From Hyphomicrobiales bacterium (GTDB lineage Bacteria > Pseudomonadota > Alphaproteobacteria > Rhizobiales > OSC116), in contig JABSRZ010000016.1 of NCBI GenBank assembly GCA_013214705.1, positions 1-40,903 on the forward strand: a DNA stretch of 40,903 bases, read 5' to 3'. The translations under genes were made by a program, and so were the position numbers. Shown one piece after another: positions 9,324 through 40,903 of this stretch; position 1 is the first letter of the stretch, and each line of letters begins with the position of its first letter. Under the pieces are notes generated by a model. That model made no database searches. It was not told where the DNA came from and was given only the letters and a program-made list of their open reading frames with translations.

Positions 9324-9332
9324 CTGTCTTTG

Positions 9333-12642: not shown

Positions 12643-12664
12643 GTGGTTTCCCCTTTTATGTAAT

Positions 12665-13789: not shown

Positions 13790-13791
13790 TT

Positions 13792-16157: not shown

Positions 16158-16165
16158 AATTATTC

Positions 16166-17685: not shown

Positions 17686-17778
17686 GCTTTATTCCTGATT
17701 GATTACAAATCTATTGAACAATTCATAGCGATCAATTACAATCAGCAATAACATCAGATCACATCAGGATGGCAAATT
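17686..17778. promoter_or_regulatory. Divergent promoter/operator region of cluster 1
   Basis: Ninety-three bases separate the operon start from the regulator start. They contain inverted arms CTGATTG (17695-17701) and CAATCAG (17739-17745), an ATTG-AA-CAAT palindrome between them, and two direct ACATCAG-like copies near the regulator start. A LacI-type protein probably binds here and controls both directions. The exact operator cannot be fixed from one site. Confidence 0.5.
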
Positions 17779-26785: not shown

Positions 26786-27532
26786 TCAGATTGTTATACC
26801 GCCATCAATGCAAATCGCTTGGCCATTGACAAATGCGCCATCGTCAGATGCTAAAAATGCACACAGGCCTGCAATCTCTTCGGGTTGCCCGAAACGCCCC
26901 GCTGGTTGGCGATCAATAAAATATTGAACCGCTTCGTCACGGCTATCCATTGTTTTTGCCAGTTCGTCAATCCGACCTTGTAGGCTTGGGCTATCAACTG
27001 TGCCTGGGCAGACAGAATTGCAGCGAATTTTTTCACCTATATAATCTGCGGCCACAGCTTTGGTTAGACCCAAAACCCCGCCCTTGGTAGCGCCATAAGC
27101 GGCGCGTTTGGCAAAGCCCTTAATCGAACTGGCGACTGAGCCAATGGTGATGATGCTGCCGCCATGGTTTTTCATTTTAGGAATGGCAGCGCCCAAAACA
27201 AAATAGGCACTGTCTAAGGTGATCGAGCAGGATTTACGCCATTCTTTTAGGCTACATTCTTCGATATTGCCGTGATGCACATAGCCGACGGCATGAACCA
27301 AAATATCAATCTGTTCAAATTGGTTAAAATAGCTTTTGACGGCCGCATCATCGGTGGCATCCAGAACACTCGTTTCAGCGCCATTTAAACTGCTCAAAAC
27401 CTTGCCGTTTAGGTCTGATGCATAGACATTTGCACCCTCGGCCATCAATCGCTCAGCCACTGCGCGGCCAATGCCTTGCGCGGCGGCGGTAACAATAGCA
27501 GTTTTACCTTTAAGTCTTTGGGTTAAATCCAT
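26786..27532 (-). CDS. SDR, 2-keto-3-deoxy-L-fuconate (or -rhamnonate) 4-dehydrogenase-like
   Basis: SDR of 248 residues: TAAAQGIGRAVAERL cofactor loop, LVHAVGYVHHG, ITIGSVASS, AAYGATKGG (Tyr/Lys), and the tell-tale NSVCPGTVDSPSLQGRI and RQPAGRFGQPEEIA. That last block is shared with the dehydrogenases that oxidise 2-keto-3-deoxyfuconate to 2,4-diketo-3-deoxyfuconate. The FAH-type hydrolase for that product is encoded just upstream. I prefer the second ATG (27532), since AGGAG sits six bases before it but touches the first ATG (27538). Confidence 0.85.
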   Translation of the reverse strand: MDLTQRLKGKTAIVTAAAQGIGRAVAERLMAEGANVYASDLNGKVLSSLNGAETSVLDATDDAAVKSYFNQFEQIDILVHAVGYVHHGNIEECSLKEWRKSCSITLDSAYFVLGAAIPKMKNHGGSIITIGSVASSIKGFAKRAAYGATKGGVLGLTKAVAADYIGEKIRCNSVCPGTVDSPSLQGRIDELAKTMDSRDEAVQYFIDRQPAGRFGQPEEIAGLCAFLASDDGAFVNGQAICIDGGITI

Positions 27533-27541
27533 TTTCATCTC

Positions 27542-28384
27542 CTAAAGCGGCACAACGGTCTGGCCTTGATGGCCCAAACCTGAAATGCCCAAAGTTATTT
27601 TATCGCCGATATTCAAGAATTTTGGTGGCTTCATGCCCACGCCAACACCCGGGGGTGTGCCGGTGCAAATTAGGTCACCCGGCTCTAACCGCATAAATTC
27701 AGAAAGATAGCTGACAATGGTCGCCACATCAAAAATCATTTTATCGGTATTTCCGGTTTGCATCCGCTCGCCATTTACGTCCAACCACATCGATAATGCA
27801 ACTCCGTCATCAACCTCGTCACCGGTAACAATCCAAGGCCCGGTGGGGCAGAAATTTGGAAATCCTTTGCCTTTGGCCCATTGGCCACTGCGCTCTAATT
27901 GCCACGCACGTTCAGATACGTCATTAACCAAAGTGTAACCCAATACATGGTCCAAAGCCTCTTGTTTGGATATGTTTAAGGCTTGCTTGCCAATGACAAT
28001 GCCCAGTTCAACTTCCCAGTCTAGCTTGGTCATTTTTGGCGAATAAAGCAGCGGGTCAAACGGCGCGCAATAAGTGCCAGATGATTTGTTGAACAGGATC
28101 GGCTCATCCGGAATATCCATACCCGCCTCGGCCGCATGATCGGAATAATTCAGGCCAATGCAATAAATATTACGCGGTTGCGCCATTGGGGCGGCAATAC
28201 GCACCCCATCCATGGCAACTGCTGGCAAATCGTTCAGATTCAAACCAGACAAGCGATCTACAAGGCCGGTAATGGTTTCGGGGGTAAAATCCGCCACGAT
28301 GCTAGACACATCCCGCGCGATGTTGTCATCACCCAATATGCAGGGTATTTCGGCACCTTCAGCGCCAAGTCTTAATAATTTCAC
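27542..28384 (-). CDS. Fumarylacetoacetate-hydrolase-family protein, likely 2,4-diketo-3-deoxy-sugar-acid hydrolase
   Basis: Protein of 280 residues starting at GTG (28384), which has GGAGA eight bases upstream and overlaps the enolase-fragment stop (GTGA); the frame stays open further upstream but that is not FAH-like. Core motifs: NYSDHAAEAG, EPILFNKSSGTY, the metal-binding DWEVELGIVIG, GYTLVNDVSER, KGFPNFCPTGPW and GDLICTGTPPGVG. The family cleaves C-C bonds of diketo acids. Beside the keto-deoxy-acid dehydrogenase it most likely splits a 2,4-diketo-3,6-dideoxyhexonate into pyruvate and lactate. Confidence 0.88.
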   Translation of the reverse strand: MKLLRLGAEGAEIPCILGDDNIARDVSSIVADFTPETITGLVDRLSGLNLNDLPAVAMDGVRIAAPMAQPRNIYCIGLNYSDHAAEAGMDIPDEPILFNKSSGTYCAPFDPLLYSPKMTKLDWEVELGIVIGKQALNISKQEALDHVLGYTLVNDVSERAWQLERSGQWAKGKGFPNFCPTGPWIVTGDEVDDGVALSMWLDVNGERMQTGNTDKMIFDVATIVSYLSEFMRLEPGDLICTGTPPGVGVGMKPPKFLNIGDKITLGISGLGHQGQTVVPL

Positions 28385-28767
28385 AAAGTCTCTCCGTAAG
28401 TTTTCTTGCCCCACCAGGTTTTGGTCAGTGGCGCCCCGCCGACAAATGCCGATTTTCCTAATACATCTTGAATGCGCAAACATTCATTCCATTTCGCCAT
28501 GCGTTCCGAGCGGGTGAATGAGCCTACTTTTAACTGGCCACCACCCAGACCTGTCGCCAAATGGCTGATGGTCACATCTTCTGTTTCACCAGAACGCGCC
28601 GATACCACGCTGCCAAACCCGGCTTTTTCTGCCGCTATAAATGCATCGATTGATTCTGTTATCGTGCCAGCTTGATTGACTTTGATAAGCACCGCATTGC
28701 GATCACCCTTAACAGCGACATTTTCTACCAACGTCTGGTTGGTCACCAGATAATCATCGCAATTAAT
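28381..28767 (-). pseudogene. Enolase C-terminal fragment
   Basis: The frame reads DDYLVTNQTLVENVAVKG, AVLIKVNQAGTITESIDAF, SARSGETEDVTISHLATG and GGGQLKVGSFTRSERMAKWN, a clear match to the last third of phosphopyruvate hydratase, including the catalytic-Lys region KVNQ and SGETED. About 300 N-terminal residues are missing; a TAG sits at 28768-28770 and unrelated DNA follows. A GTG at 28746 could start a 121-residue product. It is still coupled (GTGA) to the FAH gene, so it was once a full member of this operon. Confidence 0.85.
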
Positions 28768-28846
28768 CTACATCCGTTCGTCAAACCGCACCATTAACCT
28801 GCCTAAACATGGGTTCAAAAGAAGACATATTCGGACTTTTAACAAA

Positions 28847-29713
28847 TTACAGCGGGTTATCACCCTTCCACCAGATTTCGAAAGGGTTGGAACGCAGAAT
28901 ACCCTCGATGGTTTCTGAGCTTACCCGCGGTAATTTTGTGCCTTCTAACATGTTGTTGATATTGCGCAAACCTGCGACGCTCTCATCTACTTTAGCAAAA
29001 GGGAAATCGGTGCCAAAGAATATTTTATCAGTAATCTTATATTCCTGCGCCAAGATCAGCATGTTGTAATATTGCCAAGGGCGATAAAACAGCGCAGATT
29101 GATCTAGCCAGACATTAGGTTGTTTGCGGGCAACCACGATGGCTTCTTCATACCAAGGGTGGCCCATATGTGCCAACACCATGGTGAGTTCAGGATATTT
29201 CAGGGCAACGGGTTCAACATGGATCGCTCGGCCCATATCCACCGGAGCCTGACGTGCAAAAGTAGTGCCCATATGCATTGTCAGAGGGATATTTTTGCGT
29301 TGCAAATATTCATATACTGGTTCAAGTCGGGGGTCTGATAGGGCGACGCCGTTATAGATGGGGCCGAATTTGACGCCCTTTAAGCCTAGATCCTCGATTG
29401 CATGATGTAACAGATCCATATAATCGGCACGGCGCGGGTCAACATAGGCAAAGCCGACAAATTTGTCTGGGTATTTGGCGACCGCCATCGCGGTGATCTC
29501 GTCATTGCCTTCAATTCCAACGGAATCACCGTAGCGCAGCGAAAAGATGATCGCCTTTTGCACATCTGTCATGGCTTGATATAGGGTATCTGCATCGGCT
29601 TTTTCCACTACATCGCCAGCGCGCACCCGTGCGAGTTGGGTCTTGTAGAGCGGCAGAATATGCTCGTCGTTCCAGATATTGACATGGCAGTCGCAAAAGG
29701 CGGTGGTCGTCAT
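28847..29713 (-). CDS. Amidohydrolase_2-family hydrolase, possible sugar lactonase
   Basis: Protein of 288 residues with the TIM-barrel metal-dependent pattern: FCDCHVNIW at the N-terminus (second His of the usual HxH is Asn), GFAYVDPRR, LGLKGVKFGPIYNG, PLTMHMGTTF, MVLAHMGHPW and FFGTDFPF with the late Asp. Lactonases of L-fucose and L-rhamnose pathways belong here, so the cluster suggests opening of the sugar-1,5- or 1,4-lactone. A strong GAAGGAG site precedes the ATG. Decarboxylases of the same family are an alternative. Confidence 0.82.
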   Translation of the reverse strand: MTTTAFCDCHVNIWNDEHILPLYKTQLARVRAGDVVEKADADTLYQAMTDVQKAIIFSLRYGDSVGIEGNDEITAMAVAKYPDKFVGFAYVDPRRADYMDLLHHAIEDLGLKGVKFGPIYNGVALSDPRLEPVYEYLQRKNIPLTMHMGTTFARQAPVDMGRAIHVEPVALKYPELTMVLAHMGHPWYEEAIVVARKQPNVWLDQSALFYRPWQYYNMLILAQEYKITDKIFFGTDFPFAKVDESVAGLRNINNMLEGTKLPRVSSETIEGILRSNPFEIWWKGDNPL

Positions 29714-29731
29714 GGTTGATACTCCTTCAAT

Positions 29732-30499
29732 TCAATTGGTTTCTTCGATCTTGTGCATGGACATCAAGAAATTTATCAGTTCGTCATAGGTCATGGAGGA
29801 TGTCGGTTTGTCTAAAACAATCTCGCCTCGGTCAAGCACAAGCAATCGATCGCAGACCTCATACACGTGTTGGATATTATGCTCGATATAGATGCAGGAT
29901 CGCCCGCCCGTTTTGATCGAGCGTATGAAGTCAAGAACCTTTCTAACTTCTTTCAGCGCTAGAGCGACTGTGGGTTCGTCGAGTACGATCAGGTCGCTGT
30001 CAAAATACATTGCGCGGCCGATGGCTACGCCCTGGCGTTCACCGCCAGACAAGCTACTAACAGGTGTGTCATAATCAATACCAACACCGCGAAACCCGAT
30101 AGTTGTCCGCATGATCTGGTCGGCAATTCGTTTTTCTTCTTTAACATCGATAAAGCCGAATCTGTTGGTGATCGGCCGTCCTACAAAAAAATTTCGCCAC
30201 AATGGTTGCTTCTCACCAAGCGAGCTATCTTGATATACGGTTTCGATTTTCAATTTATGCGCTTCTTTGACCGAATAATTGGCCGCGTCAATCTTTTTGC
30301 CATGGATATATAGCGTGCCACTGGTGGGTTGCTCCACGCCAGTTAACACTTTGATTAGGGTGGATTTGCCTGCGCCGTTATCACCGATCAAGCCGACAAT
30401 CTCGTTGTTGCCAATCTCGATACTAACGTTTTTCAGGCTTTCAACCTTACCGTAAAATTTTGAGACATTCTCAAGCCGGACAATGGGTGTAGAGGGCAT
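29732..30499 (-). CDS. Sugar ABC importer, ATP-binding protein (cluster 2)
   Basis: Single-domain ATPase of 255 residues: Walker A GDNGAGKST, ETVYQDSSLGEKQPLWRNFF around the Q-loop, signature LSGGERQ, Walker B LIVLDEPT, H-loop IEHN. It is a paralogue of the ATPase at 7461, with the same overall layout but clearly diverged. It is last in the order permease, binding protein, ATPase, which differs from cluster 1. It ends 18 bases before the amidohydrolase start. Confidence 0.92.
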   Translation of the reverse strand: MPSTPIVRLENVSKFYGKVESLKNVSIEIGNNEIVGLIGDNGAGKSTLIKVLTGVEQPTSGTLYIHGKKIDAANYSVKEAHKLKIETVYQDSSLGEKQPLWRNFFVGRPITNRFGFIDVKEEKRIADQIMRTTIGFRGVGIDYDTPVSSLSGGERQGVAIGRAMYFDSDLIVLDEPTVALALKEVRKVLDFIRSIKTGGRSCIYIEHNIQHVYEVCDRLLVLDRGEIVLDKPTSSMTYDELINFLMSMHKIEETN

Positions 30500-30572
30500 C
30501 TGAGGGTTCCGTTGTTATTTTGTAAAGGGCTTCGCATAAATGTTATTCGGAGCCGCGAATTTTATTTTTTGA

Positions 30573-30599
30573 GCGGGGCGGGCGCATGGCCTGCCCCGC
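30573..30599 (-). promoter_or_regulatory. Intercistronic stem-loop after the binding-protein gene
   Basis: GCGGGGC (30573-30579) pairs with GCCCCGC (30593-30599) around a 13-base loop, between the binding-protein stop and the ATPase start. No U-run follows it on the minus strand, so mRNA protection or partial attenuation is more likely than full termination. It matches the placement of the cluster 1 hairpins. Confidence 0.6.
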
Positions 30600-30606
30600 A
30601 AAAAGT

Positions 30607-31593
30607 TTAGCGTACGCCGACTGCAATCAATGCTTCGAGCGCTTCAACGTTATTTATGTTCATTGAACCACCGCCTGTGTTTACAGACAAGCCGCCCAGA
30701 CCATATTTCACTTCAAGCACAGCAGCTAAGACTGGTAAGAAACCTTGAAGATATGGTTGTTGGTCAAGCACTTCGGTAATGTAGCCGTCTTTAACACCTT
30801 GAATGGCACCCGGTGAGATATCAAAGCCAGAAGTGATCACTTCGCCCGGGGCTTTGCCCGCAGCTTTAAGAACTTTGTCTAATATCGCGGTAATACCACC
30901 GTGACCAGGAACAATTATGGCTTTCGTATTTGGGTTGCTTTCAAGATAAGCTACCAAAACCGGAATTGACAAAGAAGGGTCAGCAACCGCTTCATTTGAC
31001 CATTGCAATGAATCAAATGGTATGCCGCTTTCTGTCAAAACATCAACACTTCCTTGTGCTACATTGGCGCCAGGCGCACCTTCGATGAAAGCACCATATA
31101 CTAGAACATTGGAACTTGCGTCCAGTCCGCCTGTAGCGATGGTCATGCTAGCTAGGTTTCTACCTGCACCGTAGTTATCAAGACCGAAATAACTCAACCC
31201 AGTACCCGGTAAGTTGTTATTGTTAACAATAACAACAACACCTTCAGATTTTGCATCAGCAATAAAAGAAAGCATTGCATCTGTGCCCGGATGACCCATA
31301 ACAACGATGGCATCAGGCAAAGCTGCTAGTGCTTCTTTGGCTTGCTTTTGCATAGTTTGGGCATTCCAGCCAGAATGCTGCTCAAAAAGATCTACATTAA
31401 GGACACGTGCTGCATCGCGTGCACCCAATTCACGGGCAAGCGTTGCGGCGTCGCCGGGGTTACCACCCATTTGGAAATAGACCCGCAAGCCACTGTCGAT
31501 AGCTTCTGCTCCTTCAGCCGCGGCCGTCAGCGGACTTGCTATCATAGCGGCGGCTAATGCCACGCCCGATAGGCTCTTGAATATGTTTCTCAT
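30607..31593 (-). CDS. Sugar ABC importer, periplasmic binding protein (cluster 2)
   Basis: Protein of 328 residues with a signal peptide (MRNIFKSLSGVALAAAMIAS, cleavage near AAA-E at 26). The mature part is of Peripl_BP_4 type: ALAALPDAIVVMGHPGTDAM, VVIVNNNNLPG, NTKAIIVPGHGGITAILDKV and ITEVLDQQPYLQGFLPV. The conserved DQQP-Y-QG segment is typical of sugar binders. It feeds the permease encoded directly upstream. The substrate is probably the deoxy or methylated sugar broken down by the same cluster. Confidence 0.9.
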   Translation of the reverse strand: MRNIFKSLSGVALAAAMIASPLTAAAEGAEAIDSGLRVYFQMGGNPGDAATLARELGARDAARVLNVDLFEQHSGWNAQTMQKQAKEALAALPDAIVVMGHPGTDAMLSFIADAKSEGVVVIVNNNNLPGTGLSYFGLDNYGAGRNLASMTIATGGLDASSNVLVYGAFIEGAPGANVAQGSVDVLTESGIPFDSLQWSNEAVADPSLSIPVLVAYLESNPNTKAIIVPGHGGITAILDKVLKAAGKAPGEVITSGFDISPGAIQGVKDGYITEVLDQQPYLQGFLPVLAAVLEVKYGLGGLSVNTGGGSMNINNVEALEALIAVGVR

Positions 31594-31659
31594 TTACTTC
31601 TCCCTTTTTTGGTTTTTACAGGTTAGATATCCCGCAACCCAGACCGGATTACGGGGGTA

Positions 31660-32688
31660 TTATCGCTTCATTCTTAAGCGTATAGATTTGATTAAAGGAA
31701 CCTTGTCAGGATCTTCGATCGCGTTATTCATGACCACTGACAGGATAAAGACAACGCCGATGAAAAAGCGGGTCCAGAATCCCTGAATACCACTTGCCAC
31801 CAGACCAGCCTCGATTATCGCTACGATAAGCGCTGCGAACACAGTGCCGACCACCTTGCCAGAACCGCCGAATATCGAGGTTCCGCCAATGAAAACAGCC
31901 GCAATCACTGTCAGCAAATAACCTTGCCCCTGCGAGCTGAAATAGACGTTGGTTTCGACCGTTAGGAACACACCAGCAAGCGCCGAAAGCGCGCCCATCA
32001 GGGTAAATAGTTTGATCCGTTCGCGTGCAACTGGGATGCCGACAACCTTGGCAACTTTTTCGCTATCACCAATGAACAGGATGTTTTCTCCAAACGGGTG
32101 ACGGTTCAAAAGTAACCAGATAAAGGCCGAGATAGCCAACGCCCAGATCATCTGAGCTGGAAAATAACCCCCGATCCGCCCGACCATAATTGTGTGAAAA
32201 AATGTTGCTTGAATGGTGGGGATAGCAATTGATATGCCGTTTGAAATAATCGTCACCAGCCCGCCCCACAGGAACATCATGGCAAGGGAAGCGATCATCG
32301 AGGGTATACCAAGCTTGGTGATTATCCACCCGTTGATAAACCCCATCAATGTGCCTACCATAACGGCTGCGAAAAGAGCAATCCAGGTAAATTCATATTG
32401 CTGAAAAAGCATACTGAAGATGTAGCTACCAAAGGCAACGGTTGCGGGGAATGAAAGGTCCATTTCGCCGGCCGAAGCGACAAGTGTCAGGCCAAGTGCG
32501 ATGATAAGCGCCGGCGGCACCGAGGCCATAAAGCTCATATAAATACGATAACCGGTAAAGGCACGCGGCGCAGTGAACATGAACAAAAGAATAAGGATGA
32601 TGAAAACCAGAGCGGTACCAGCGCCCTCGATGCTGAACAATTTGACAAGCAGACTGGTTTTTTCTGAATTTGATTTTTTCGCGGTCAC
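31660..32688 (-). CDS. Sugar ABC importer, permease (cluster 2)
   Basis: Membrane protein of 342 residues, BPD_transp_2 family, with about nine hydrophobic segments. Signatures: TLVASAGEMDLSFPATVAFG, GFINGWIITKLGIPSMIASL, FIGGTSIFGGSGKVVGTVFA. It starts at GTG (32688), sharing one base with the TAG of the RraA-like gene and preceded by GGAG, so it is translationally coupled to that gene. The dehydratase, RraA-like and transport genes thus form one operon. Confidence 0.9.
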   Translation of the reverse strand: MTAKKSNSEKTSLLVKLFSIEGAGTALVFIILILLFMFTAPRAFTGYRIYMSFMASVPPALIIALGLTLVASAGEMDLSFPATVAFGSYIFSMLFQQYEFTWIALFAAVMVGTLMGFINGWIITKLGIPSMIASLAMMFLWGGLVTIISNGISIAIPTIQATFFHTIMVGRIGGYFPAQMIWALAISAFIWLLLNRHPFGENILFIGDSEKVAKVVGIPVARERIKLFTLMGALSALAGVFLTVETNVYFSSQGQGYLLTVIAAVFIGGTSIFGGSGKVVGTVFAALIVAIIEAGLVASGIQGFWTRFFIGVVFILSVVMNNAIEDPDKVPLIKSIRLRMKR

Positions 32689-33374
32689 TATAACACTCCG
32701 TATTTGGCGTAAACATCACGCAGATAGCCACCCGCACGCAATTCCTTGATGGACCGATTTTCATCGTCAATCTTTTCGAAGGCTTTTTCTAACACCTTGG
32801 CTTCATGTTGTTGTGGGATGACGACCAGCCCGTCGGCATCGCCTATCACCAGATCGCCGGGACAGACCCGCACGCCAGCGCAGATCACCGGCACATCAAT
32901 GGTCATGATCTGGCCACGCCCTTTTGAATCAAGCGGGGCAATTCCACCGGCAAAAACCGGAAGCTTTAGGCGTCGTATTTCTTTGATATCGCGTACAAAA
33001 CCATCTGTCACGCAGCCGCTAGCTCCGCGAGATTTGGTAGCCGTTGATAGCAAACCTCCCCAAGGGGCAATCCGCTTAGACCCGCCGCAAGCAAAAACAG
33101 CCACTTCACCGGGGCAAAGATCATCGATAAGTTTGATTTCTAACTCGTAAGGGTTTTCACCTTCGGTAACGTAAGGAACCTCCATATATACGCCTGTGCG
33201 GGCACGGGCGCACAACATTAAATCATCATCAAGCGGGCGTATTGTTGGTTCCATGACCTGATTGGCGATGCCGAATTCATCAAGCGCATCCGAGACAACG
33301 GCGGCGAAAAGTAGCTCCCATCGCTCTGGCAAGGCAGGCAGTTTTGTTTGTTGTGGGTTGTGTGCAATATTCAT
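32688..33374 (-). CDS. RraA-like / HMG-aldolase-family protein
   Basis: Protein of 228 residues from the ATG at 33374, which has AAGG upstream; the open frame beyond it overlaps the dehydratase and is not RraA-like. Features: VVSDALDEFGIAN at the N-terminus, WGGLLSTATKSRGASGCVTDG, FVRDIKEI with the metal-side R-D pair, and GDLVIGDADGLVVIPQ. RraA-fold proteins include class II pyruvate aldolases, oxaloacetate decarboxylases and RNase E inhibitors. In a sugar-acid operon an aldolase or decarboxylase role is likelier, perhaps an alternative cleavage of the 2-keto-3-deoxy acid. Confidence 0.8.
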   Translation of the reverse strand: MNIAHNPQQTKLPALPERWELLFAAVVSDALDEFGIANQVMEPTIRPLDDDLMLCARARTGVYMEVPYVTEGENPYELEIKLIDDLCPGEVAVFACGGSKRIAPWGGLLSTATKSRGASGCVTDGFVRDIKEIRRLKLPVFAGGIAPLDSKGRGQIMTIDVPVICAGVRVCPGDLVIGDADGLVVIPQQHEAKVLEKAFEKIDDENRSIKELRAGGYLRDVYAKYGVL

Positions 33375-33387
33375 GGATAAACCTTGG

Positions 33388-35124
33388 TTAGAAAGAAACT
33401 TTAGAGGGTGGTGTGCCGGATTTACCGACCAAAAAGTCGAAATCAGCGCCTTTGTCGGCCTGCTGCACATGTTCGGTATAAAGCAGTCCATAGCCACGGG
33501 AATGGGCGGGTTGAGGCGGAATAAAAGCTGTCCGGCGCTTAGCCAGCTCTGCTTCATCCACTTCTAGCTCGAGTCGCTGCGCATCGGTGTCTATGGTGAT
33601 AAAATCACCATTTTGAACCAAGGCTAGTGGCCCACCGATGGCAGATTCAGGCGCCACATGCAAAACCACTGTGCCAAAGGCAGTGCCGCTCATGCGGGCA
33701 TCGGAAATGCGCACCAGATCGGTTACGCCTTGCTTAAGCAGTTTTGCCGGAAGCGCCATACTGCCAACTTCTGGCATGCCAGGATATCCCTGCGGGCCAG
33801 AATTTTTCAACACTAGAATACTGTTTTTATCTACATCAAGATCGGGGTGGTCGATGCGCTCACGCAAATCAGCAGCGCTTTCAAATACAACGGCTTTGCC
33901 GCGATGCTTCATCAGTTCTGGGCTGGCAGCTGAGGGTTTGATGATGGCTCCATCTGGAGCAAGGTTACCGCGCAAAACGATAATTCCGCCCTGCTCGGTC
34001 AACGGATTATCGCGGGGGCGAATGACTTCGTCATCATACCCAACTGCATCAGAAATGCGCTCGCCAATTGTACCGCCTTCAATGGCAGTTGCATTCAGAT
34101 CAAGCATTTCAGAAATTCGCTCCATCACCACAGGCAACCCGCCAGCTTCAAAGAAATCTTCCATCAAGAAGCGACCGGAAGGTTTGAGATCAACAATACA
34201 GGGGACATCGCGCCCCAGTTCATGCCAATCATCAAGCGAAAATTCTATGCCAAGCCGACCAGCCAAGGCCAGCAAATGCAAAACAGCATTGGTAGAACCG
34301 CCGATGGCGCCGTTGACCTTAACTGCATTCTCAAATGCACCACGGGTCAGGATTTGTGACAGATCCACCCCTTGCTGCACCAATTCAACAATTCTCGAGC
34401 CAGACATTTCCGCTAACACCGCGCGGCGGCTATCAGGAGCTGGAATAGAGCCGTTCATTGGCAATGCTACGCCCATAGCCTCGGCTATTAAAGCCATGGT
34501 GGAGGCCGTGCCCATGGTCATACAAGTTCCAGCAGAACGTGACATGGCAGCCTCTGCCTCGCCTAAATCTTTTTTGCTTAATTTGCCGGTTCGATATTCG
34601 TCATCAAGCCGAAAAACATCAGTGCCAGACCCTAGTTGGCGGCCTCGAAATTTGCCGTTAAGCATAGGGCCACTAGATACCAGAATAGTCGGCAGGTCGC
34701 ACGAAGCCGCGCCCATCAACAGCGCAGGCGTGGTTTTGTCACAACCAGCCAGCAGCACAACACCATCAATCGGGTTGGCGCGTAAGGTCTCCTCGACATC
34801 CATCGACAATAGATTGCGAAACATCATGGTGGTGGGGCGCATAAACGGCTCACCCAGACTGGTAACCGGAAATTCTAACGGGAAACCTCCGGCCATTAGC
34901 ACGCCACGTTTTACATGCTCAGCAAGTTCGCGAAGGTTGCGGTTGCAATTGGTCAGTTCAGACCATGTGTTGCAAATACCAATTACCGGACGTCCATCAA
35001 GCAAACGTTCAGAGAAGCCCTGGCTGCGCATCCAACTGCGAGGGACAAAACCATGCTTACCATCAATGCCGAACCATTCTGCACTGCGGAGTTTACGCTT
35101 TGAATTTGGTTTTTCTGAATTCAT
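33388..35124 (-). CDS. IlvD/Edd-family sugar-acid dehydratase (L-arabinonate dehydratase type)
   Basis: Protein of 578 residues, the length of pentonate dehydratases. Three cluster-ligand Cys are in place (Cys60 in NCNRN after GICNTWSELT, Cys128 in LLAGCDKTTPA, Cys201 in AGTCMTMGTAST), plus Lys129 next to Cys128. Further motifs: NGAIGGSTNAVLHL and GPQGYPGMPEVG, RISDARMSGTAFG. It turns an aldonate into a 2-keto-3-deoxy acid. The ATG at 35124 follows GGAGG and AAGGA; the frame continues upstream through the palindromic operator, which is non-coding. It is the first gene of the cluster 2 minus-strand operon. Confidence 0.92.
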   Translation of the reverse strand: MNSEKPNSKRKLRSAEWFGIDGKHGFVPRSWMRSQGFSERLLDGRPVIGICNTWSELTNCNRNLRELAEHVKRGVLMAGGFPLEFPVTSLGEPFMRPTTMMFRNLLSMDVEETLRANPIDGVVLLAGCDKTTPALLMGAASCDLPTILVSSGPMLNGKFRGRQLGSGTDVFRLDDEYRTGKLSKKDLGEAEAAMSRSAGTCMTMGTASTMALIAEAMGVALPMNGSIPAPDSRRAVLAEMSGSRIVELVQQGVDLSQILTRGAFENAVKVNGAIGGSTNAVLHLLALAGRLGIEFSLDDWHELGRDVPCIVDLKPSGRFLMEDFFEAGGLPVVMERISEMLDLNATAIEGGTIGERISDAVGYDDEVIRPRDNPLTEQGGIIVLRGNLAPDGAIIKPSAASPELMKHRGKAVVFESAADLRERIDHPDLDVDKNSILVLKNSGPQGYPGMPEVGSMALPAKLLKQGVTDLVRISDARMSGTAFGTVVLHVAPESAIGGPLALVQNGDFITIDTDAQRLELEVDEAELAKRRTAFIPPQPAHSRGYGLLYTEHVQQADKGADFDFLVGKSGTPPSKVSF

Positions 35125-35144
35125 TTCCTTCGTGACCTCCGGTG

Positions 35145-35192
35145 TAATAATTACATTTAACGTAACATGTATAACGTTAAATGTAATTATTA
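35145..35192. promoter_or_regulatory. 48-bp palindrome, probable LacI-type double operator
   Basis: Arms TAATAATTACATTTAACGT (35145-35163) and its exact reverse complement (35174-35192) flank the near-palindromic centre AACATGTATA. Each half contains a TTAACG/CGTTAA with the central CG usual in LacI-family sites. It sits 21 bases upstream of the dehydratase start and downstream of the regulator gene, so it should control the minus-strand catabolic operon. Confidence 0.8.
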
Positions 35193-35228
35193 GCAAGAGC
35201 TAATTATTTGCAAATGTGAGTTTGAAGT

Positions 35229-36284
35229 TTAAGTCGTGGCACCGATGTTGAAATGAACCGGTAAAACAATGTCCCGCTCGGGAAACTGGCCAGATGAAAG
35301 CCGAGCCAACATAGCCTCGCCCGCCCGCTCACCAAGTTGATAGGCCGAGGAGAGCACCGTGGTTAGCTGCGGGCGAAGATAACGATGCGCCTCAAAGCCA
35401 TTAAAACCGACTATACGCACATCCTCAGGAACGCTATAACCGCGATCCGAAAGAAGCAGCATAGCGGCCAGCGCTATCTGGTCGTTGCCGCAGAAAATAG
35501 CTTCTGGAAGGGCGTTACTATCAAGGTAGTCCCCAAATGAATCCTTTACATCACTATAAGATTCATTCCCGGCTTTCACTATATTCAATTCCACTTTGGA
35601 GCCAGACTGTGCAATAGATTCCTGCAGGCCTTGGATTCTTTCCTCGATGGCTGGCCAGGTTTGCCCCGGCCGTAAAACCAGAATATTTTTGACCCCACGA
35701 GCAAGAAAGTGATCGCCAATTAACCGGCCACCTGCCCGGTCATCCTGCCTGACGGTGCAAACATCTTCATATTTATCAGGGGCCTCCTGCTGAAATAACA
35801 CAAGTGGTTGATCAAGAGACCGCAACTGTTCGACCACCATTTTCCGATCGTGGCAATCGCCTGAAATCATGGCACAAAAACCGCCAACCTCAAAACTTCG
35901 CATAATCATGGAGTTAGCTAGGTCGCTTGCCCGCATGCCTTGGACCGTCATAGTATAGTCGGCACTGTTAAGCACATTGGCCAAGCCCGCCACAACTTGA
36001 GCGGTGAAAAAATCGACTAGAAACGATGGGGAATCATCAATCACTATCATACCTACAGACCGCTGATGGGCTCCGCGCAAATTGCGTGCAGCAGACTGGC
36101 GGCGATAGTTGAGGCGCACGATCTCGCGCTCTACCCGCAGTTTGGTTTTTGAACTGACAAATTGAAGCCGGTTATTCAGCACGTTGGATACAGTCATGGG
36201 TGACACTTTTGCTTCTCGAGCCACATCCTTGATAGTTGGGCGTCTAGCAGGTGGCTTAGATCCAGATTTAATTTCTTCGACCAT
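35229..36284 (-). CDS. LacI-family transcriptional regulator (cluster 2)
   Basis: Protein of 351 residues with a short basic N-terminal lead, then the LacI helix-turn-helix TIKDVAREAKVSPMTVSNVLNN, hinge region, and sensor domain (VGMIVIDDSPSFL, QDDRAGGRLIGDHFLARG, EAIFCGNDQIALAAMLLL, VGFNGFEAHRYLRPQLTTV). It lies between the palindrome before the dehydratase operon and a related site before its own start, so autoregulation and control of both arms of cluster 2 are likely. It is not closely similar to the cluster 1 regulator. Confidence 0.92.
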   Translation of the reverse strand: MVEEIKSGSKPPARRPTIKDVAREAKVSPMTVSNVLNNRLQFVSSKTKLRVEREIVRLNYRRQSAARNLRGAHQRSVGMIVIDDSPSFLVDFFTAQVVAGLANVLNSADYTMTVQGMRASDLANSMIMRSFEVGGFCAMISGDCHDRKMVVEQLRSLDQPLVLFQQEAPDKYEDVCTVRQDDRAGGRLIGDHFLARGVKNILVLRPGQTWPAIEERIQGLQESIAQSGSKVELNIVKAGNESYSDVKDSFGDYLDSNALPEAIFCGNDQIALAAMLLLSDRGYSVPEDVRIVGFNGFEAHRYLRPQLTTVLSSAYQLGERAGEAMLARLSSGQFPERDIVLPVHFNIGATT

Positions 36285-36321
36285 ATTGTGTCTCCCATAA
36301 ATATCCTATATGTATATATAT

Positions 36322-36340
36322 CGTTAAATGTAAATTAACG
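36322..36340. promoter_or_regulatory. Second LacI-type operator in the divergent promoter
   Basis: CGTTAA-ATGTAAA-TTAACG, an inverted repeat sharing the CGTTAAATGTAA half-site with the 48-bp palindrome. It lies between the regulator start (36284) and the SDR start (36358). An outer ATCCTAT (36303-36309) and ATAGGAT (36347-36353) pair surrounds it. It probably governs both divergent promoters. Confidence 0.7.
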
Positions 36341-36357
36341 CAACGCATAGGATTTTC

Positions 36358-37119
36358 ATGTCTAACAACTTTGCAAACTATCCCAGCCTAAAGGCTAAAT
36401 CTGTTTTCATCACCGGCGGTGCGGGCGGCATTGGCGCAAGCCTAGTAGCAAATTTTGCGGCTCAAGGTGCGCGGGTGGGTTTTGTGGATATCGACGATAA
36501 AAGCGCCAATGAATTGCGCGCCACAATTGATGTAGATGTGCATTACGCGCACTGCAACCTTTTGGATATTGATGCGCTAAAACAAACAATTGCCGATTTT
36601 GAAGCTTGCAATGATGGCCATATAGACGTGCTGATTAATAACGCTGGCAACGACGCCCGACACAGCGTGGCAGAAGTGGACCCCGCTTATTGGGACGATC
36701 GCATGAACCAAAATCTGCGTCATAAATTCTTTGCTGCGCAGGCGGTGTATAAGGGTATGGCGCGGGCTGGCGGTGGCTCTATCATCAATCTGGGGTCTAC
36801 GGTTGTGGCGATGTCTGCTGGCAATATGCCAGCCTATGTAACCGCCAAAGCTGCGGTATACGGGATGACGCGCGCTTTAGCTCGGGATTTTGGTCAAGAT
36901 CGCATAAGGGTGAATTGCATTGTACCCGGTTGGATTATGACAGAACGGCAAAAAGAATTATGGTTTTCCGACACTTCAGCAGCAGAAATTTCGAAAAACC
37001 AATGTTTGCCCGACACCTTGCACCCGGAAGACATTGCTTGCATGGCGTTGTTTCTGGCCGCAGACGATAGCCGCCACTGCACCGCTCAAAACTTTGTGGT
37101 TGACGGCGGCTGGACATGA
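36358..37119 (+). CDS. SDR sugar dehydrogenase (D-xylose/L-arabinose/fucose 1-dehydrogenase type)
   Basis: SDR of 253 residues close in pattern to Caulobacter XylB-type sugar dehydrogenases: YPSLKAKSVFITGGAGGIGA, NNAGNDARHSVAEV, the NLRHKFFAAQAVYKGM block, INLGSTVV, AYVTAKAAVYGMTRALARDF and QNFVVDGGW. It would oxidise the free sugar at C1 to a lactone with NAD(P), the first step of a non-phosphorylating pathway. TAGGAT precedes the ATG. It opens the plus-strand operon divergent from the regulator. Confidence 0.88.
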   Translation: MSNNFANYPSLKAKSVFITGGAGGIGASLVANFAAQGARVGFVDIDDKSANELRATIDVDVHYAHCNLLDIDALKQTIADFEACNDGHIDVLINNAGNDARHSVAEVDPAYWDDRMNQNLRHKFFAAQAVYKGMARAGGGSIINLGSTVVAMSAGNMPAYVTAKAAVYGMTRALARDFGQDRIRVNCIVPGWIMTERQKELWFSDTSAAEISKNQCLPDTLHPEDIACMALFLAADDSRHCTAQNFVVDGGWT

Positions 37120-37173
37120 GGTCAATAGCTGCCCCGCGCAACCCAACCCTATCAAACCATGGAGATTGATTAC

Positions 37174-38244
37174 ATGCCATCTCGCGACTATAACTTGCTT
37201 GGTCCAGACGCCCAAAACGCTGTTACCAACGGTCTCGTTACGGAGAATTGGTACAAAACACCCATTCCACGCCAGCAAATAAAGGCTCTGATGCGACGTT
37301 CAGACCAACCTGCTCTGCGCGATACGGCAATTTTATTTACATTAATGATCGGCTTTGCTGTGGGAGCTATCGCCGTTGGCCAGTCGTGGTGGGCGTTACC
37401 CCTTTGGCTGGCATATGGTGTGTTCTACGGCTCAGCGATGGACTCGCGATGGCATGAATGCGGGCATGGCACTGCCTTTAAAACACGTTGGATGAACCAA
37501 ACTCTCTATCAGATTGCCTGCTTTTGTTTGATCCGCGATCCACATTGTTGGAAATTCAGTCACGCTCGACATCACTCAGACACTATAATCGTTGGGCGTG
37601 ATCCTGAGATTGCCATTATGCGGCCACCAAACATTCCCGCACTTTTGGTTATTTTCTTTGGCATTTTCGACTTTTTCAATGGGTTCAAACGTATGTTTAC
37701 TCATGCTGCCGGCAACATTCTGCCCGAGGAAGCGGCTTACGTGCCAGAAAATTATCACCCCGCTATCTTTCGCATCGCCCGTATTTGGTCGCTCATTTAT
37801 TTGCTTACATTAATCGTAGCCTTCGTGCTTCAATCATGGGTGCCTGTGTTATTAATAGGGTTGCCGCGCATGTATGGTTGTTGGCATATAGTGTTGTGTG
37901 GTTTGCTTCAGCATGGTGGTTTGGCAGACAATGTGACCGACCATCGGCTAAATAGCCGAACGGTTTATATGAATCCCATAAGCCGCTTTATATATTGGAA
38001 TATGAACTATCATATCGAACACCATATGTTCCCTTTGGTCCCTTATTTTCGTTTGCCAGAACTACACCGCGCGCTTGCGCATGATTTGCCCAGCCCTAGC
38101 CACTCGATTTTTGCGGCCTATAAAGAAATGCTGCCCGCAGTGATGCGTCAAATTAAAAACCCTGAATATCAGATAAATCGGCCTTTGCCTGCCACGGCAA
38201 ATCCTTATCAAAAACATACAAGCCAAACCAAAGCTAAAAATTAG
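37174..38244 (+). CDS. MocD-like fatty-acid-desaturase-family hydroxylase
   Basis: Membrane diiron protein of 356 residues. The three His boxes are complete: H94-ECG-H98, H130-AR-HH (133-134), and H280-IE-HH (283-284) in NYHIEHHMFP. Hydrophobic segments flank them (~50-85, ~155-175, ~205-235). The start at 37174 follows GGAG; an ATG at 37159 overlaps that site. A Rieske ferredoxin gene follows after 19 bases, the same pairing as MocD/MocE in rhizopine (3-O-methyl-scyllo-inosamine) catabolism. The neighbours are sugar enzymes, not lipid genes, so oxidative O-demethylation or hydroxylation of a sugar is more likely than lipid desaturation. Confidence 0.85.
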   Translation: MPSRDYNLLGPDAQNAVTNGLVTENWYKTPIPRQQIKALMRRSDQPALRDTAILFTLMIGFAVGAIAVGQSWWALPLWLAYGVFYGSAMDSRWHECGHGTAFKTRWMNQTLYQIACFCLIRDPHCWKFSHARHHSDTIIVGRDPEIAIMRPPNIPALLVIFFGIFDFFNGFKRMFTHAAGNILPEEAAYVPENYHPAIFRIARIWSLIYLLTLIVAFVLQSWVPVLLIGLPRMYGCWHIVLCGLLQHGGLADNVTDHRLNSRTVYMNPISRFIYWNMNYHIEHHMFPLVPYFRLPELHRALAHDLPSPSHSIFAAYKEMLPAVMRQIKNPEYQINRPLPATANPYQKHTSQTKAKN

Positions 38245-38263
38245 AAAATTAAAGGGAAAACAA

Positions 38264-38575
38264 ATGACAAATTGGATCGACGCTTGTTCAAGCGATGATA
38301 TTGAAGCAGAAGACGTGGTCCGTTTTGACCATGAAAGGCGAACGTTCGCCATTTATCGTAACCATGAAAACCAATATTTTTGCTCAGATGGGTTATGTAC
38401 CCATGAAGAGGTACATCTAGCCGATGGCTTTGTGATGGAAAGCACCATCGAATGCCCCAAACATTCCAGCATTTTTGACTTTAGAACCGGTGTGGTCGAG
38501 ACGCCGCCAGCCTGTGAGAATCTCAAAATCTATGCCACAAAAGTCGAAAACGGCCGGGTGTTTATCGAGGTTTAA
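38264..38575 (+). CDS. Rieske [2Fe-2S] ferredoxin, MocE-like
   Basis: Small soluble protein of 103 residues with both Rieske ligand pairs: Cys45-x-His47 in LCTHEE and Cys64-x-x-His67 in IECPKHSSIFD. It resembles the MocE/NirD/BphF ferredoxin group and should pass electrons to the diiron enzyme encoded just upstream. No ferredoxin reductase (MocF) gene is present in the window, so one must be supplied from elsewhere. Confidence 0.92.
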   Translation: MTNWIDACSSDDIEAEDVVRFDHERRTFAIYRNHENQYFCSDGLCTHEEVHLADGFVMESTIECPKHSSIFDFRTGVVETPPACENLKIYATKVENGRVFIEV

Positions 38576-38642
38576 TTAGTGATACAAGCTTTAACAATTT
38601 AGTTATTTAGCGGTAAATTTTATAACGGAACGTGTTTACACA

Positions 38643-40340
38643 ATGGCGCATAAAAACTTTATCACGGACATAACCAACATTGTTGGTTCAAAAAACATTC
38701 TGACCAAAGCTCATAAAACCAAACGCTATCGCACTGGGTTTCGGTCCGGCGAAGGCGATGCCATTGCGGTTGTGTTTCCAACCTCATTGCTTATGCAATG
38801 GCATGTTTTACAAGCCTGCGTAAAGGCTGACATTGTCTTAATTATGCAAGCTGCCAACACTGGGTTAACCGAGGGCTCAACCCCTAGTGGCAATGAATAT
38901 GGCCGAGAGGTGGTGATATTAAATACCACTCGTATGGATAAAATTCACATAATTAGTGAGGGCAAACAGGTTGTCGCCTTGCCTGGTGCAACGCTTTATA
39001 AGCTAGAGCAGCAGCTAGAAGAATTTGACCGCCTGCCACATTCAGAAATTGGCTCATCTTGCATAGGTGCCTCTATTGTTGGTGGTGTTTGTAACAATAG
39101 CGGTGGCGCGTTAATTCACCGTGGCCCAGCCTATACCGAACTGGCGCTGTTTGCCCAAATTCATGCCGATGGTCGAGTTGATTTGGTCAATCATCTGGGT
39201 ATTAATTTGGGGCAAGATGCCGAAACCATACTTAGAAATTTAGATGATGGCGCGTTTGATAAAAGTGATATTGAACAAACTGATAAATTGGCATCCGACC
39301 AAACTTACCAAGACCGAGTTAGGAATATAACTGAGGATACGCCGTCCAGATTTAATGCCGATAAAGATCATTTATTTGAAACCAGTGGCTGTGCTGGCAA
39401 ATTAGTGGTATTCGCTGTGCGGTTAGACACTTATGAAAAAAACAAACAAGAACAGTTATTTTATATTGGCACAAACAACCCCAATGAACTTACTGACATT
39501 AGAAAACACATATTGAGTGAATTCGACAATTTGCCAATATTGGCTGAATATATGCACAAAGACATTTATGACATTGCCAAAAAATATGGCAAGGATGTGT
39601 TTGTGATTATAAACCTTCTGGGCACTAGCTACCTACCAATGTTTTTTACCTTAAAAGGCAATTTGGATGCTTGGTTTGAAAAACTGGGCTTTTTGCCCAA
39701 ACATTTTGCCGATAAAATGATTCAATTTTTAAGCATGTTTTTACCCAATTTATTGCCCAAAAAAATTGAAAACTATCGGGGAAAATATAATCATTATCTG
39801 ATGATTAAAATGGCCGATAGTGGCATTGCGGAGTTAGATGGTTTTTTAAGCGAATATTTTTCCAAAAATCAACAGAAACAAGGCGAATTTTATATCTGCC
39901 CGCCTAAAGATAGCTCAAAGATTTTGCTACATAGATTTGTGGCGGCGGGTAGCGCAGTGCGTTATCAGGCCGTTTATCATCAACAAGTAGAAGAGGTTAT
40001 TGCCTTAGATGTTGCCCTTAAGCGCAATGAAGAAAATTGGTTTGAGACTTTGCCAAAAGAGATTGAGCAGCAACTGAGCCACAAGCTATATTACGGCCAT
40101 TTTATGTGCCATGTATTTCATCAAGACTATATAGTTAAAAAAGGCGCTGATACGGTAAAAATCAAAACTCAAATGTTAGAGATTTTTAACCAAAAGGGCG
40201 CTGAATATCCCGCCGAACACAATGTTGGGCATGTTTATAAAGCCAAACCAGATCTTGCTAATTTCTATCAACAACTCGACCCAACCAATAGCCTTAACCC
40301 CGGCATTGGAAATGTCAGCAAACTAAAATTCTACAAGTAA
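38643..40340 (+). CDS. dld: Quinone-dependent D-lactate dehydrogenase, FAD-binding
   Basis: Protein of 565 residues, collinear with E. coli Dld: TKRYRTGFRSGEGDAIAVVF, MQAANTGLTEGSTPSGNEYG, HSEIGSSCIGASIVGGVCNN and SGGALIHRGPAYTELALFA in the FAD domain; YNHYLMIKMADSG and AGSAVRYQAVYH, then KLYYGHFMCHVFHQDYIVKK and AEHNVGHVYKA, DPTNSLNPGIG at the C-terminus. It oxidises D-lactate to pyruvate at the inner face of the membrane, feeding the quinone pool. Beside a pathway predicted to release lactate it would complete conversion to pyruvate. It has its own 67-base upstream gap. Confidence 0.95.
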   Translation: MAHKNFITDITNIVGSKNILTKAHKTKRYRTGFRSGEGDAIAVVFPTSLLMQWHVLQACVKADIVLIMQAANTGLTEGSTPSGNEYGREVVILNTTRMDKIHIISEGKQVVALPGATLYKLEQQLEEFDRLPHSEIGSSCIGASIVGGVCNNSGGALIHRGPAYTELALFAQIHADGRVDLVNHLGINLGQDAETILRNLDDGAFDKSDIEQTDKLASDQTYQDRVRNITEDTPSRFNADKDHLFETSGCAGKLVVFAVRLDTYEKNKQEQLFYIGTNNPNELTDIRKHILSEFDNLPILAEYMHKDIYDIAKKYGKDVFVIINLLGTSYLPMFFTLKGNLDAWFEKLGFLPKHFADKMIQFLSMFLPNLLPKKIENYRGKYNHYLMIKMADSGIAELDGFLSEYFSKNQQKQGEFYICPPKDSSKILLHRFVAAGSAVRYQAVYHQQVEEVIALDVALKRNEENWFETLPKEIEQQLSHKLYYGHFMCHVFHQDYIVKKGADTVKIKTQMLEIFNQKGAEYPAEHNVGHVYKAKPDLANFYQQLDPTNSLNPGIGNVSKLKFYK

Positions 40341-40436
40341 ATCCATGAACATTTGAAATTTGAATTCAAAAGCATGTCAATATTTTTGTCGACGATTATA
40401 AAAAAAATACTGCCCCAAGAGTATTTCCTTGTTTCA

Positions 40437-40655
40437 CTCACAACACAAATTGACTTTACTTATCTAAAAATCATTGGTTGGGGTTGGGTGTATTTATCAA
40501 CCATTTTGGATGATTACTCACGCTATATAGTGAGTTGGAAGCTCTGTACAACAAAGAAGAGCCATGATGCTACAGATGCGATTTAACTTGCTTTACAAGC
40601 TTCTGGTTGTGGCAAACCACATGTCAAACAAAAACCACTTCAACAATTAAGATGA
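40437..40655 (+). pseudogene. IS3-family transposase (orfB) fragment
   Basis: Frame reads LTTQIDFTYLKIIGWGWVYL, STILDDYSRYIVSWKLCTTK, DATDAI, a TAA stop at 40584-40586, then in the same frame LALQASGCGKPHVKQK to 40655. This is the start of the rve/DDE core (first Asp in QIDFTYLK, second in LDDYSRYI) of an IS3-type transposase. Both ends are missing and there is a nonsense codon, so it is dead. Confidence 0.85.
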
Positions 40656-40718
40656 ACAAAACTCTAATTCCGTTCAAACACCGAGTAATCCCTAAGCATT
40701 AGAAGTCGAAAAGGTTCA

Positions 40719-40742
40719 TTTGTGGGTAGATTTGTGGGTAGA
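40719..40742. repeat. Tandem 12-bp repeat near the tRNA-like end
   Basis: TTTGTGGGTAGA occurs twice head to tail (40719-40730, 40731-40742), about 40 bases from the CCA end of the tRNA-like sequence. Such short tandem sites beside a tRNA 3' end are likely integrase arm-type sites of an island junction. Confidence 0.6.
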
Positions 40743-40747
40743 TTGTA

Positions 40748-40772
40748 TTTTATTGGTATTTAACCAATAAAA
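40748..40772. terminator. AT-rich hairpin next to the tRNA-like gene
   Basis: Perfect 10-bp inverted repeat TTTTATTGGT (40748-40757) and ACCAATAAAA (40763-40772) with loop ATTTA. On the minus strand it lies 11 bases past the CCA end, where a terminator for the RNA would be expected, and it ends in a T-rich arm. Being AT-only apart from two GC pairs it is weak. Confidence 0.5.
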
Positions 40773-40783
40773 ACAGTGGTATT

Positions 40784-40903
40784 TGGTTGCGGGGGTAGGA
40801 TTTGAACCTACGACTGTAAGAAGTCCCGTTAGGGGCGACCTTCAGGTTATGCTGGAGGCGACCGTGAACACAGGTGTGTTCGCGTAAGCGCCGTATGGAC
40901 GAG
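40784..40903 (-). ncRNA. tRNA-like 3' end (initiator-tRNA-like att remnant or split-tmRNA acceptor piece), cut by window end
   Basis: The minus strand reads a T-arm GTAGG-TTCAAAT-CCTAC and acceptor strand CCCCGCAACCA, identical in pattern to the 3' end of alphaproteobacterial initiator tRNA-Met. CATAACCTGAAGGTCG, matching that tRNA's anticodon-side sequence, lies upstream, but 24 extra bases separate it from the T-arm and no normal anticodon or D-arm follows. Instead there are hairpins (GAACAC-ACCT-GTGTTC; CCTCCAG-CATAAC-CTGAAGG). It could be a rearranged tRNA at an integration site, or the acceptor piece of a permuted tmRNA. I cannot decide between these. Confidence 0.45.

Follow-up and report, generated by a model that had tools for sequence, protein, structure and literature searches.

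A divergent sugar-acid unit carrying a MocDE pair

The stretch analysed here, called the window throughout, comprises 40,903 nucleotides of a Hyphomicrobiales bacterium (OSC116; GCA_013214705.1, contig JABSRZ010000016.1, positions 1–40,903, forward strand). At 26786–40340, the open-frame list and family scans reveal two divergent arms about one LacI regulator. The minus arm runs LacI, IlvD/Edd, RraA, permease, binding protein, ATPase, Amidohydro_2, an enolase C-terminal remnant, FAH and SDR2, the last a short-chain dehydrogenase/reductase (SDR); the plus arm runs XylB-type SDR, a MocD-like protein of the FA_desaturase family, a MocE-family ferredoxin and Dld, with intergenic gaps of 39 (XylB-SDR/MocD), 19 (MocD/MocE) and 67 bases (MocE/Dld). 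The features are as follows; percentages are identities, and the four syntenic relatives are those described in the next section.

26786..27538, minus: SDR2, predicted 2-keto-3-deoxy-sugar-acid 4-dehydrogenase (8xwk/8y11, E 2e-64)
27542..28384, minus: FAH-family hydrolase, predicted to act on a 2,4-diketo-3-deoxy-sugar acid (FAA_hydrolase, 7.1e-70; GTG start at 28384 overlaps the enolase-remnant stop)
28381..28746, minus: enolase-like C-terminal remnant (Enolase_C profile 187–291 of 296)
28847..29713, minus: Amidohydro_2 protein, predicted lactonase (PF04909, 1e-35)
29732..30499, minus: ABC ATPase (family scan; 85–86% in syntenic operons)
30607..31593, minus: sugar-binding protein Peripla_BP_4 (family scan; 70–71% in syntenic operons, 64–65% in L145/L147)
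31660..32688, minus: ABC permease BPD_transp_2 (family scan; 66–67% in syntenic operons)
32688..33374 (end approximate), minus: RraA-like protein (PF03737, 1.6e-33; listed frame extends to 33557, start read from sequence)
33388..35196, minus: IlvD/Edd sugar-acid dehydratase (ILVD_EDD_N, 1.2e-105; likely start ATG 35124, from reading the sequence)
35154..35183, no strand assigned: operator-like inverted motif near-copies upstream of IlvD (motif comparison with relatives)
35229..36284, minus: LacI-family regulator (PF00356/PF13377; 61–62% in the four syntenic operons)
36317..36330, plus: operator-like motif TATATCGTTAAATG in the LacI/XylB-SDR gap (core ATATATCGTTAMAT in 5/5 syntenic gaps)
36358..37119, plus: XylB-type SDR, predicted aldose 1-dehydrogenase (NF053674; 65–68% in the four syntenic relatives)
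37159..38244, plus: MocD-like diiron oxygenase, FA_desaturase family (PF00487, 1.8e-32)
38264..38575, plus: MocE-family Rieske 2Fe-2S ferredoxin, predicted MocD electron donor (TIGR02377; PF00355)
38643..40340, plus: Dld, quinone-linked D-lactate dehydrogenase (PRK11183; 1f0x)

A preliminary description of this region had proposed a complete diketo-hydrolase route for a 6-deoxy sugar, combined with a MocDE-like oxygenase pair. Every gene it named is present as an open frame, with family matches far above chance; its list left out the ABC importer, RraA, the LacI regulator and the enolase remnant. Taken one by one, these enzyme families are widespread: in a sample of 297 genomes of the order, 238 have FAH at E<=1e-60 and 106 have IlvD at E<=1e-180. 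What is rare is their combination. The binding protein finds a match at E<=1e-60 in one of the 385 genomes of a class-wide sample, the source genome itself.

The nearest relatives of the individual enzymes outline a sugar-acid pathway. The XylB-type SDR matches 7wwx, 4lvu and the sulfoquinovose 1-dehydrogenase 9gwu (E 3.8e-68) in the PDB; despite the last match, a look for sulfo-Entner–Doudoroff genes turned up no glycosidase or sulfo-specific family among the scanned window proteins. IlvD/Edd passes PRK06131 (897.5 bits, cut-off 539) and falls below the cut-off of the L-arabinonate dehydratase model (831.8 against 882), with 8ej0 and the L-arabinonate dehydratase 9evv as solved relatives. The Amidohydro_2 protein has no NCBIfam family and a weak PDB match (3irs, 4.2e-16); we predict it to be the lactonase. 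The solved structures closest to SDR2 are those of L-2-keto-3-deoxyfuconate 4-dehydrogenase (KDFDH; 8xwk, 8y11), along with human SDR member 6 (2ag5), presumably the BDH2 protein. By our own mapping, SDR2 keeps the residues at KDFDH places S137, R148, Y151, T183, L189, R192, R214 and Q215, and where KDFDH has W252 it carries Ile. PMC11199699 states that Arg148, Arg192 and Arg214 bind the carboxylate, that Thr183 is frequent in type 1, and that KDFDH is specific for 4(S) acids, those derived from L-fuconate, D-xylonate, L-galactonate and D-gluconate. The best solved relative of the FAH protein is L-2,4-diketo-3-deoxyrhamnonate hydrolase (8gsr, E 7.6e-74). These two assignments, with R148, T183, R192 and R214 retained in SDR2, support the diketo-hydrolase end of the pathway as first proposed, and the gene first described as a lactate dehydrogenase proves to be an E. 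coli-type Dld (PRK11183, 916.9 bits, cut-off 391; 1f0x, E 2.7e-234). Its best plasmid matches are enterobacterial Dld proteins (58%).

The MocD-like protein carries three His boxes, and H99/H103, H135/H138/H139, H285/H288/H289, H252 and H262 are invariant in all 37 sequences compared (the window protein and 36 relatives); from the FA_desaturase family we take it to bind iron. It is adjoined by the Rieske ferredoxin (PF00355), which passes the MocE model TIGR02377 (153.6 bits, cut-off 136.15). Rhizopine catabolism proper was considered for the window and rejected, as no mocBCR-like, MocF or inositol genes were found there; among the families found in the window there is no rhizopine or inositol gene, and its two Gfo/Idh/MocA-family genes belong to another subgroup.

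Both divergent promoters carry the operator-like motif. The window matches it nine times with at most two mismatches, against 1.83 expected, and six of the nine lie in the two gaps; these six overlap on both strands and thus amount to about three sites. Upstream of IlvD, TTTAACGTTACATG is present in 4/4 syntenic relatives, and the window has inverted near-copies there. Among the loci compared, TTTAACGTTANATG occurs exactly only in the syntenic relatives (L165–L168) and at one place near an RraA gene of genome G020 (L134/L146). Because the motif stands at both promoters, the two arms, and MocDE with them, are probably under the control of one LacI protein.

An older operon with probable additions

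Synteny was assessed in the sample of 297 genomes of the order, with 20 kb read in each relative. The best relatives of the window IlvD (76–78%) occur in four genomes of one genus (4/4 sampled of that genus), and all four keep the window's order of XylB-SDR / LacI-IlvD-RraA-permease-binding protein-ATPase-amidohydrolase at 61–86% identity. MocDE, FAH, SDR2 and Dld were not found in these four relatives within the 20 kb read. Because the core operon exists without them, these genes look like additions; the earlier proposal that MocDE is inserted in a sugar operon is supported in this sense, as an addition to a pre-existing one.

The FAH–SDR2 pair offers a clue to its own origin. An intact eno lies directly before FAH in Paracoccus seriniphilus (L121), Roseibium (L122) and a cluster of the source genome (L180). 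Operons in which kinase, enolase and FAH follow one another, with SDR2 after them, occur in these three and in Rhizobium. FAH and SDR2 of L121, L122 and L180 are 64–69% and 60–70% identical to those of the window; unlike these operons, the window has no kinase, and its enolase is reduced to about the last 120 codons. From this comparison, the pair looks like a derivative of such a kinase-enolase-FAH-SDR operon, and we read the enolase remnant as the cut edge of that operon type, a recombination scar. An Ensifer locus (L123) has the FAH–SDR2 pair without an enolase match alongside. A recent duplication of the source genome's own kinase-enolase-FAH cluster is unsupported, as its FAH is only 64–65% identical.

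In L121, L122, L126 and L180 the operon consists of an APH-type kinase, an enolase-like protein, FAH and an SDR, and the enolase-like protein of L121 passes TIGR01060. These operons possibly represent an uncharacterised sugar-acid route with phosphorylation and enolase in place of the dehydratase.

Neighbourhoods of MocD and the remainder of the window

We compared 108 neighbourhoods, defined as loci longer than 4.3 kb with a MocD match above 250 bits (79 genome contigs, 9 plasmids and 20 further genomes). L044 (3,995 bases, one of 80 genome-contig loci) and short loci were left out, and some species are possibly present twice. Neighbours were counted up to 10.5 kb away at identity thresholds that we set gene by gene, with some loci ending at contig edges. 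MocE lies near MocD in 96 of the 108, within 1.5 kb in 95, and a MocF-like reductase in 65. One-carbon genes are frequent (PanB-like in 57, PurU in 10, FolD in 5, FrmA in 3; any of the four in 59/108), and inositol or rhizopine genes occur in 38/108. The PurU and FrmA examples pass curated cut-offs, one being a class III alcohol dehydrogenase 6.8 kb from MocD (L156:16240-17358; TIGR02818, 593.9 bits against 543.95); at 120.8 bits against 272, the PanB-like protein counts as a distant paralogue. Its gene stands close behind MocDE in many loci (L032–L035, L118–L120 and others), sometimes with PurU and FolD, and its product is a candidate formaldehyde- or folate-handling partner. Oxidative O-demethylation fits because genes for methylene- or formyl-tetrahydrofolate or formaldehyde adjoin the oxygenase, and judged by such neighbours it is the likely activity of the MocDE family. 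The O-demethylating role put forward in the preliminary description is therefore supported for the family. The comparative genomics of the gene pair, which it had suggested and which we carried out, cuts both ways: one-carbon and inositol or rhizopine genes speak for the role, and a link of the pair to Gfo/Idh genes weighs against its use in this pathway.

The combination of sugar-acid operon and MocDE is not seen in the related neighbourhoods examined: a relative of the window IlvD, RraA, amidohydrolase or SDR2 at >=45% identity within 10.5 kb of MocD occurs in 0/108. The five same-genus genomes show no MocD at E<=1e-90. Nearest to a second example is a metagenome contig (L058) with IlvD (41%) and FAH (50%) 8–10 kb from MocD. 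Three Phyllobacterium loci (L088, L105, L114) have FAH (51–52%) and an SDR2 relative (42%) at 7.5–10 kb, L112 has a partial FAH at the locus edge (62% over 42% of its length), L050 an RraA relative (32%), L161 a Dld (53%) 6.3 kb from MocD, and three Aminobacter loci an XylB-type SDR (53–54%) 3.7 kb from it. The MocD tree pairs the window protein with its sister from Mameliella L036 (100/100, with long branches). Both belong to a larger group that also takes in L058 and three SAR116 proteins (95/83), and by the markers used no member of this group lies in an inositol locus. Around MocDE, L036 carries a Gfo/Idh gene and two xylose-isomerase-like proteins. On the SAR116 contigs (L062, L078, L092), the MocD relative (57–59%) has no MocE or other marker gene close by.

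The Gfo/Idh link leads back into the window. Operon A (5209–18801) encodes LacI2, an SDR, an enoyl-CoA hydratase-like protein, DUF4432, CoA-transferase III, two Gfo/Idh/MocA proteins (GFO1, GFO2), the importer ABC2, 2-keto-3-deoxy-6-phosphogluconate aldolase and a protein like 2-keto-3-deoxygluconate (KDG) kinase. Relatives of MocDE have a second linkage group, made up of differing selections from two Gfo/Idh genes, a LacI, an ABC system and DUF4432 (L155, L159, L160, L182, L183), and homologues of these genes lie in operon A. The order is LacI2 / MocD-MocE-PanB-GFO2-GFO1 in L159 and L160, and the same without PanB in L183; GFO1 and GFO2 of these three loci are 57–60% identical to the window's. 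GFO2 occurs in 13 of the 297 genomes, all of which (the source included) have MocD, vs 40/297 overall (hypergeometric 7e-13, uncorrected for kinship); in 6 of the 12 others the distance between the two genes is at most about 11 kb. Relatives of GFO1, GFO2, the CoA-transferase and the hydratase also lie within 10 kb of one another in a haloarchaeon, Halomontanus rarus (L125). At the edge of operon A (5209–6591), one frame joins a KDG-kinase-like PfkB domain (residues 11–309) to the last ~140 residues of an SDR that lacks its nucleotide-binding half; this fusion looks like a second deletion scar.

Elsewhere in the window, a 1581-residue protein with DUF4011, AAA helicase, REase_MTES_1575 and DUF3320 domains lies between the two sugar operons (21741–26486) and is possibly a defence gene. 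The left end (1–672) carries a phage integrase domain. Stretches of the right end (40341–40903) recur on other contigs of this genome, one of them as an exact 77-base copy at C10:29499, and by eye this end reads like part of a transposase. Rfam gave nothing at gathering score in the window and nothing at E<=1 in 40500–40903, and ARAGORN found no tRNA in the window or in the five of eight right-end copy loci scanned. Promoter-like sites (25 against 23.8 expected in the window) carry no weight, and of 11 pattern matches in viral contigs none was confirmed.

A proposed pathway, its alternatives and known systems

From the observed gene content, synteny, signature residues, shared motif and neighbourhood associations, we infer the reactions, the substrate and the action of MocDE on it, and propose the following model. 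The ABC system would import an aldose, which the XylB-type SDR would oxidise to a lactone; the amidohydrolase would open the lactone, and IlvD/Edd would dehydrate the acid to a 2-keto-3-deoxy acid. At the older end of the pathway, RraA would cleave this product, and at the added end SDR2 would oxidise C4 and FAH would hydrolyse the resulting 2,4-diketo acid, giving pyruvate together with a 2-hydroxy acid. Dld, being specific for D-lactate, suggests that the 6-deoxy sugar is D-configured, and D-quinovose (6-deoxy-D-glucose) would fit the 4(S) preference reported for this type of SDR. Taken together, 4(S) preference, D-lactate and a gluco/xylo-type 1-dehydrogenase would make quinovose, by an inferred stereochemical step, the simplest substrate; a 6-deoxyhexose is our interpretation rather than an observation. 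MocD, receiving electrons from MocE, would hydroxylate an O-methyl group of the sugar or acid; the product would break down into formaldehyde and a free hydroxyl, which would open the pathway to methylated forms of the sugar. That MocDE acts on the operon's own sugar is plausible; that this sugar is methylated quinovose is a guess. To the whole, a LacI-controlled divergent sugar unit in which two cassettes were added to an older operon and MocDE demethylates an O-methylated D-gluco-type sugar, perhaps D-quinovose, we assign a probability of about 0.42.

Several observations weigh against this model. The XylB-type SDR reaches 319.1 bits with the D-xylose 1-dehydrogenase model NF053674 (cut-off 400), and FAH 337.7 bits with NF053535 (curated cut-off 500). 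The 4(S) argument is soft because KDFDH has moderate activity also on the 4(R) acid from L-arabinonate, according to PMC11199699. RraA is a possible 2-keto-3-deoxy-acid aldolase, which would be an alternative last step; in Chelatococcus, relatives of RraA (53%), the amidohydrolase (66%) and IlvD (64%) are grouped without FAH. GC content is about 0.41 across 38001–40000, below the rest, and this and the 67-base gap in front of it may set Dld apart from the operon. There is no MocF reductase among the window genes, the genome's best match (32%) lying in an 847-residue frame, nor is the PanB-like gene closely matched in the genome (29% at best), though a FrmA-like protein at 60% is present. A Foldseek search of the PDB with the predicted MocD model (pLDDT 75.7, pTM 0.78, a middling confidence) returned no clear desaturase match; two matches at E<=0.001 were to chloroplast motor complex chains (8xqw_M, 8xks_K; TM 0.51–0.55), from which we draw no conclusion. 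The neighbourhoods were picked by similarity to the window MocD and many are rhizobial, so that their counts are not independent. More serious, MocDE is linked in relatives to Gfo/Idh genes whose homologues sit in operon A, 24 kb away.

This last point feeds an explanation that we consider unlikely, namely that MocDE serves operon A and its place behind the XylB-SDR is incidental. The gene order of L159, L160 and L183 favours it, as do the unfailing company of MocD in GFO2 genomes, their proximity in half of the others, and relatives of DUF4432 and/or ABC2 beside MocD in L155, L182, L117 and L116. However, the window MocD belongs to a different clade from the MocDs found with GFO genes, for which reason the pairing on this contig probably arose separately, and it stands far from GFO2, behind a gap bearing the motif of the sugar-acid operon. 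The presence of MocDE and operon A on one contig may reflect a function shared across both operons, or chance.

The operon might instead handle an unmethylated pentose or hexose (D-xylose, L-arabinose or D-glucose), yielding pyruvate and glycolate or glycerate, with Dld and MocDE as unrelated neighbours. The nearest models, an XylB-type SDR and an L-arabinonate-type IlvD, would suit such a route, KDFDH also accepts D-2-keto-3-deoxypentonate (PMC11199699), and the four syntenic operons lack both MocDE and Dld. Yet the 39- and 19-base gaps tie MocDE to the XylB-SDR, FAH is nearest to a 6-deoxy-acid hydrolase, and Dld fits D-lactate; on balance we find this alternative rather unlikely. A further alternative, which would have undone the initial proposal, makes MocD a hitch-hiker in the operon that desaturates or hydroxylates lipids or alkanes; this seems very improbable. 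PF00487 does include lipid desaturases, and the three SAR116 relatives lack MocE and marker genes close by; against this stand the tight MocD–MocE pairing in 95/108 loci, the frequent inositol and one-carbon as well as sugar genes nearby, and NCBIfam lipid models that reach 30.7 against a cut-off of 500.

Many glycans of algae, plants and animals, and many cyclitols, bear methyl groups that protect them against degradation. Extending the favoured model of a LacI-controlled, MocDE-bearing sugar unit, one may speculate that a widespread class of O-demethylases for sugars and cyclitols has its founding type in MocDE, a membrane diiron enzyme that receives electrons from a Rieske ferredoxin. Placed here in a hybrid aldolase/diketo-hydrolase pathway, it would enable a single LacI regulon to take an O-methylated D-6-deoxy sugar (e.g., methylated quinovose) to pyruvate, D-lactate and formaldehyde; we hold this broader proposal to be doubtful. 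The operon is in any case a coherent mosaic and a clear example of modular pathway assembly, with the cut end, the enolase remnant, still visible. The matches listed in the open-access literature include no biochemical study of MocD acting as a sugar O-demethylase.

How does the unit compare with known systems? MocDEF, following Bahar 1998, is reportedly a ferredoxin oxygenase of rhizopine catabolism. The mocDEF genes of this pathway are named in PMC10107442 and PMC5132102 and offer an existing genetic model. The window MocD and MocE are 58% and 53% identical to those of L118, a locus of rhizopine type judged by gene content, and follow in the same order. Unlike MocDEF, they have no MocF, PanB-like, PurU, MocA/B/C/R or inositol genes alongside and sit in a sugar-acid operon. 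With the non-phosphorylating diketo-hydrolase pathway of L-fucose and L-rhamnose (FucA-H, LRA5-6), as given in PMC11199699, the unit shares a 1-dehydrogenase, a predicted lactonase, a dehydratase, a KDFDH-type SDR and an FAH-family protein, and the window RraA stands where an aldolase branch would. In contrast to that pathway, its IlvD/Edd is of the arabinonate type and its 1-dehydrogenase of the XylB type, and Dld implies D- rather than L-lactate. In marine bacteria, according to PMC10033563, a P450 demethylates 6-O-methyl-D-galactose, and this is the one sugar O-demethylation route noted among the literature matches listed. Were MocDE a second, its occurrence in 40 of the 297 genomes of the order, often near folate or formaldehyde genes, would allow a large and simple test, and the window would show the module moving into a new pathway. 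The two routes would have in common an oxidative removal of the sugar O-methyl group with release of formaldehyde, as proposed here for the window, and would differ in their catalyst, a cytochrome P450 in the galactose route and a desaturase-family enzyme with a Rieske ferredoxin in the window.

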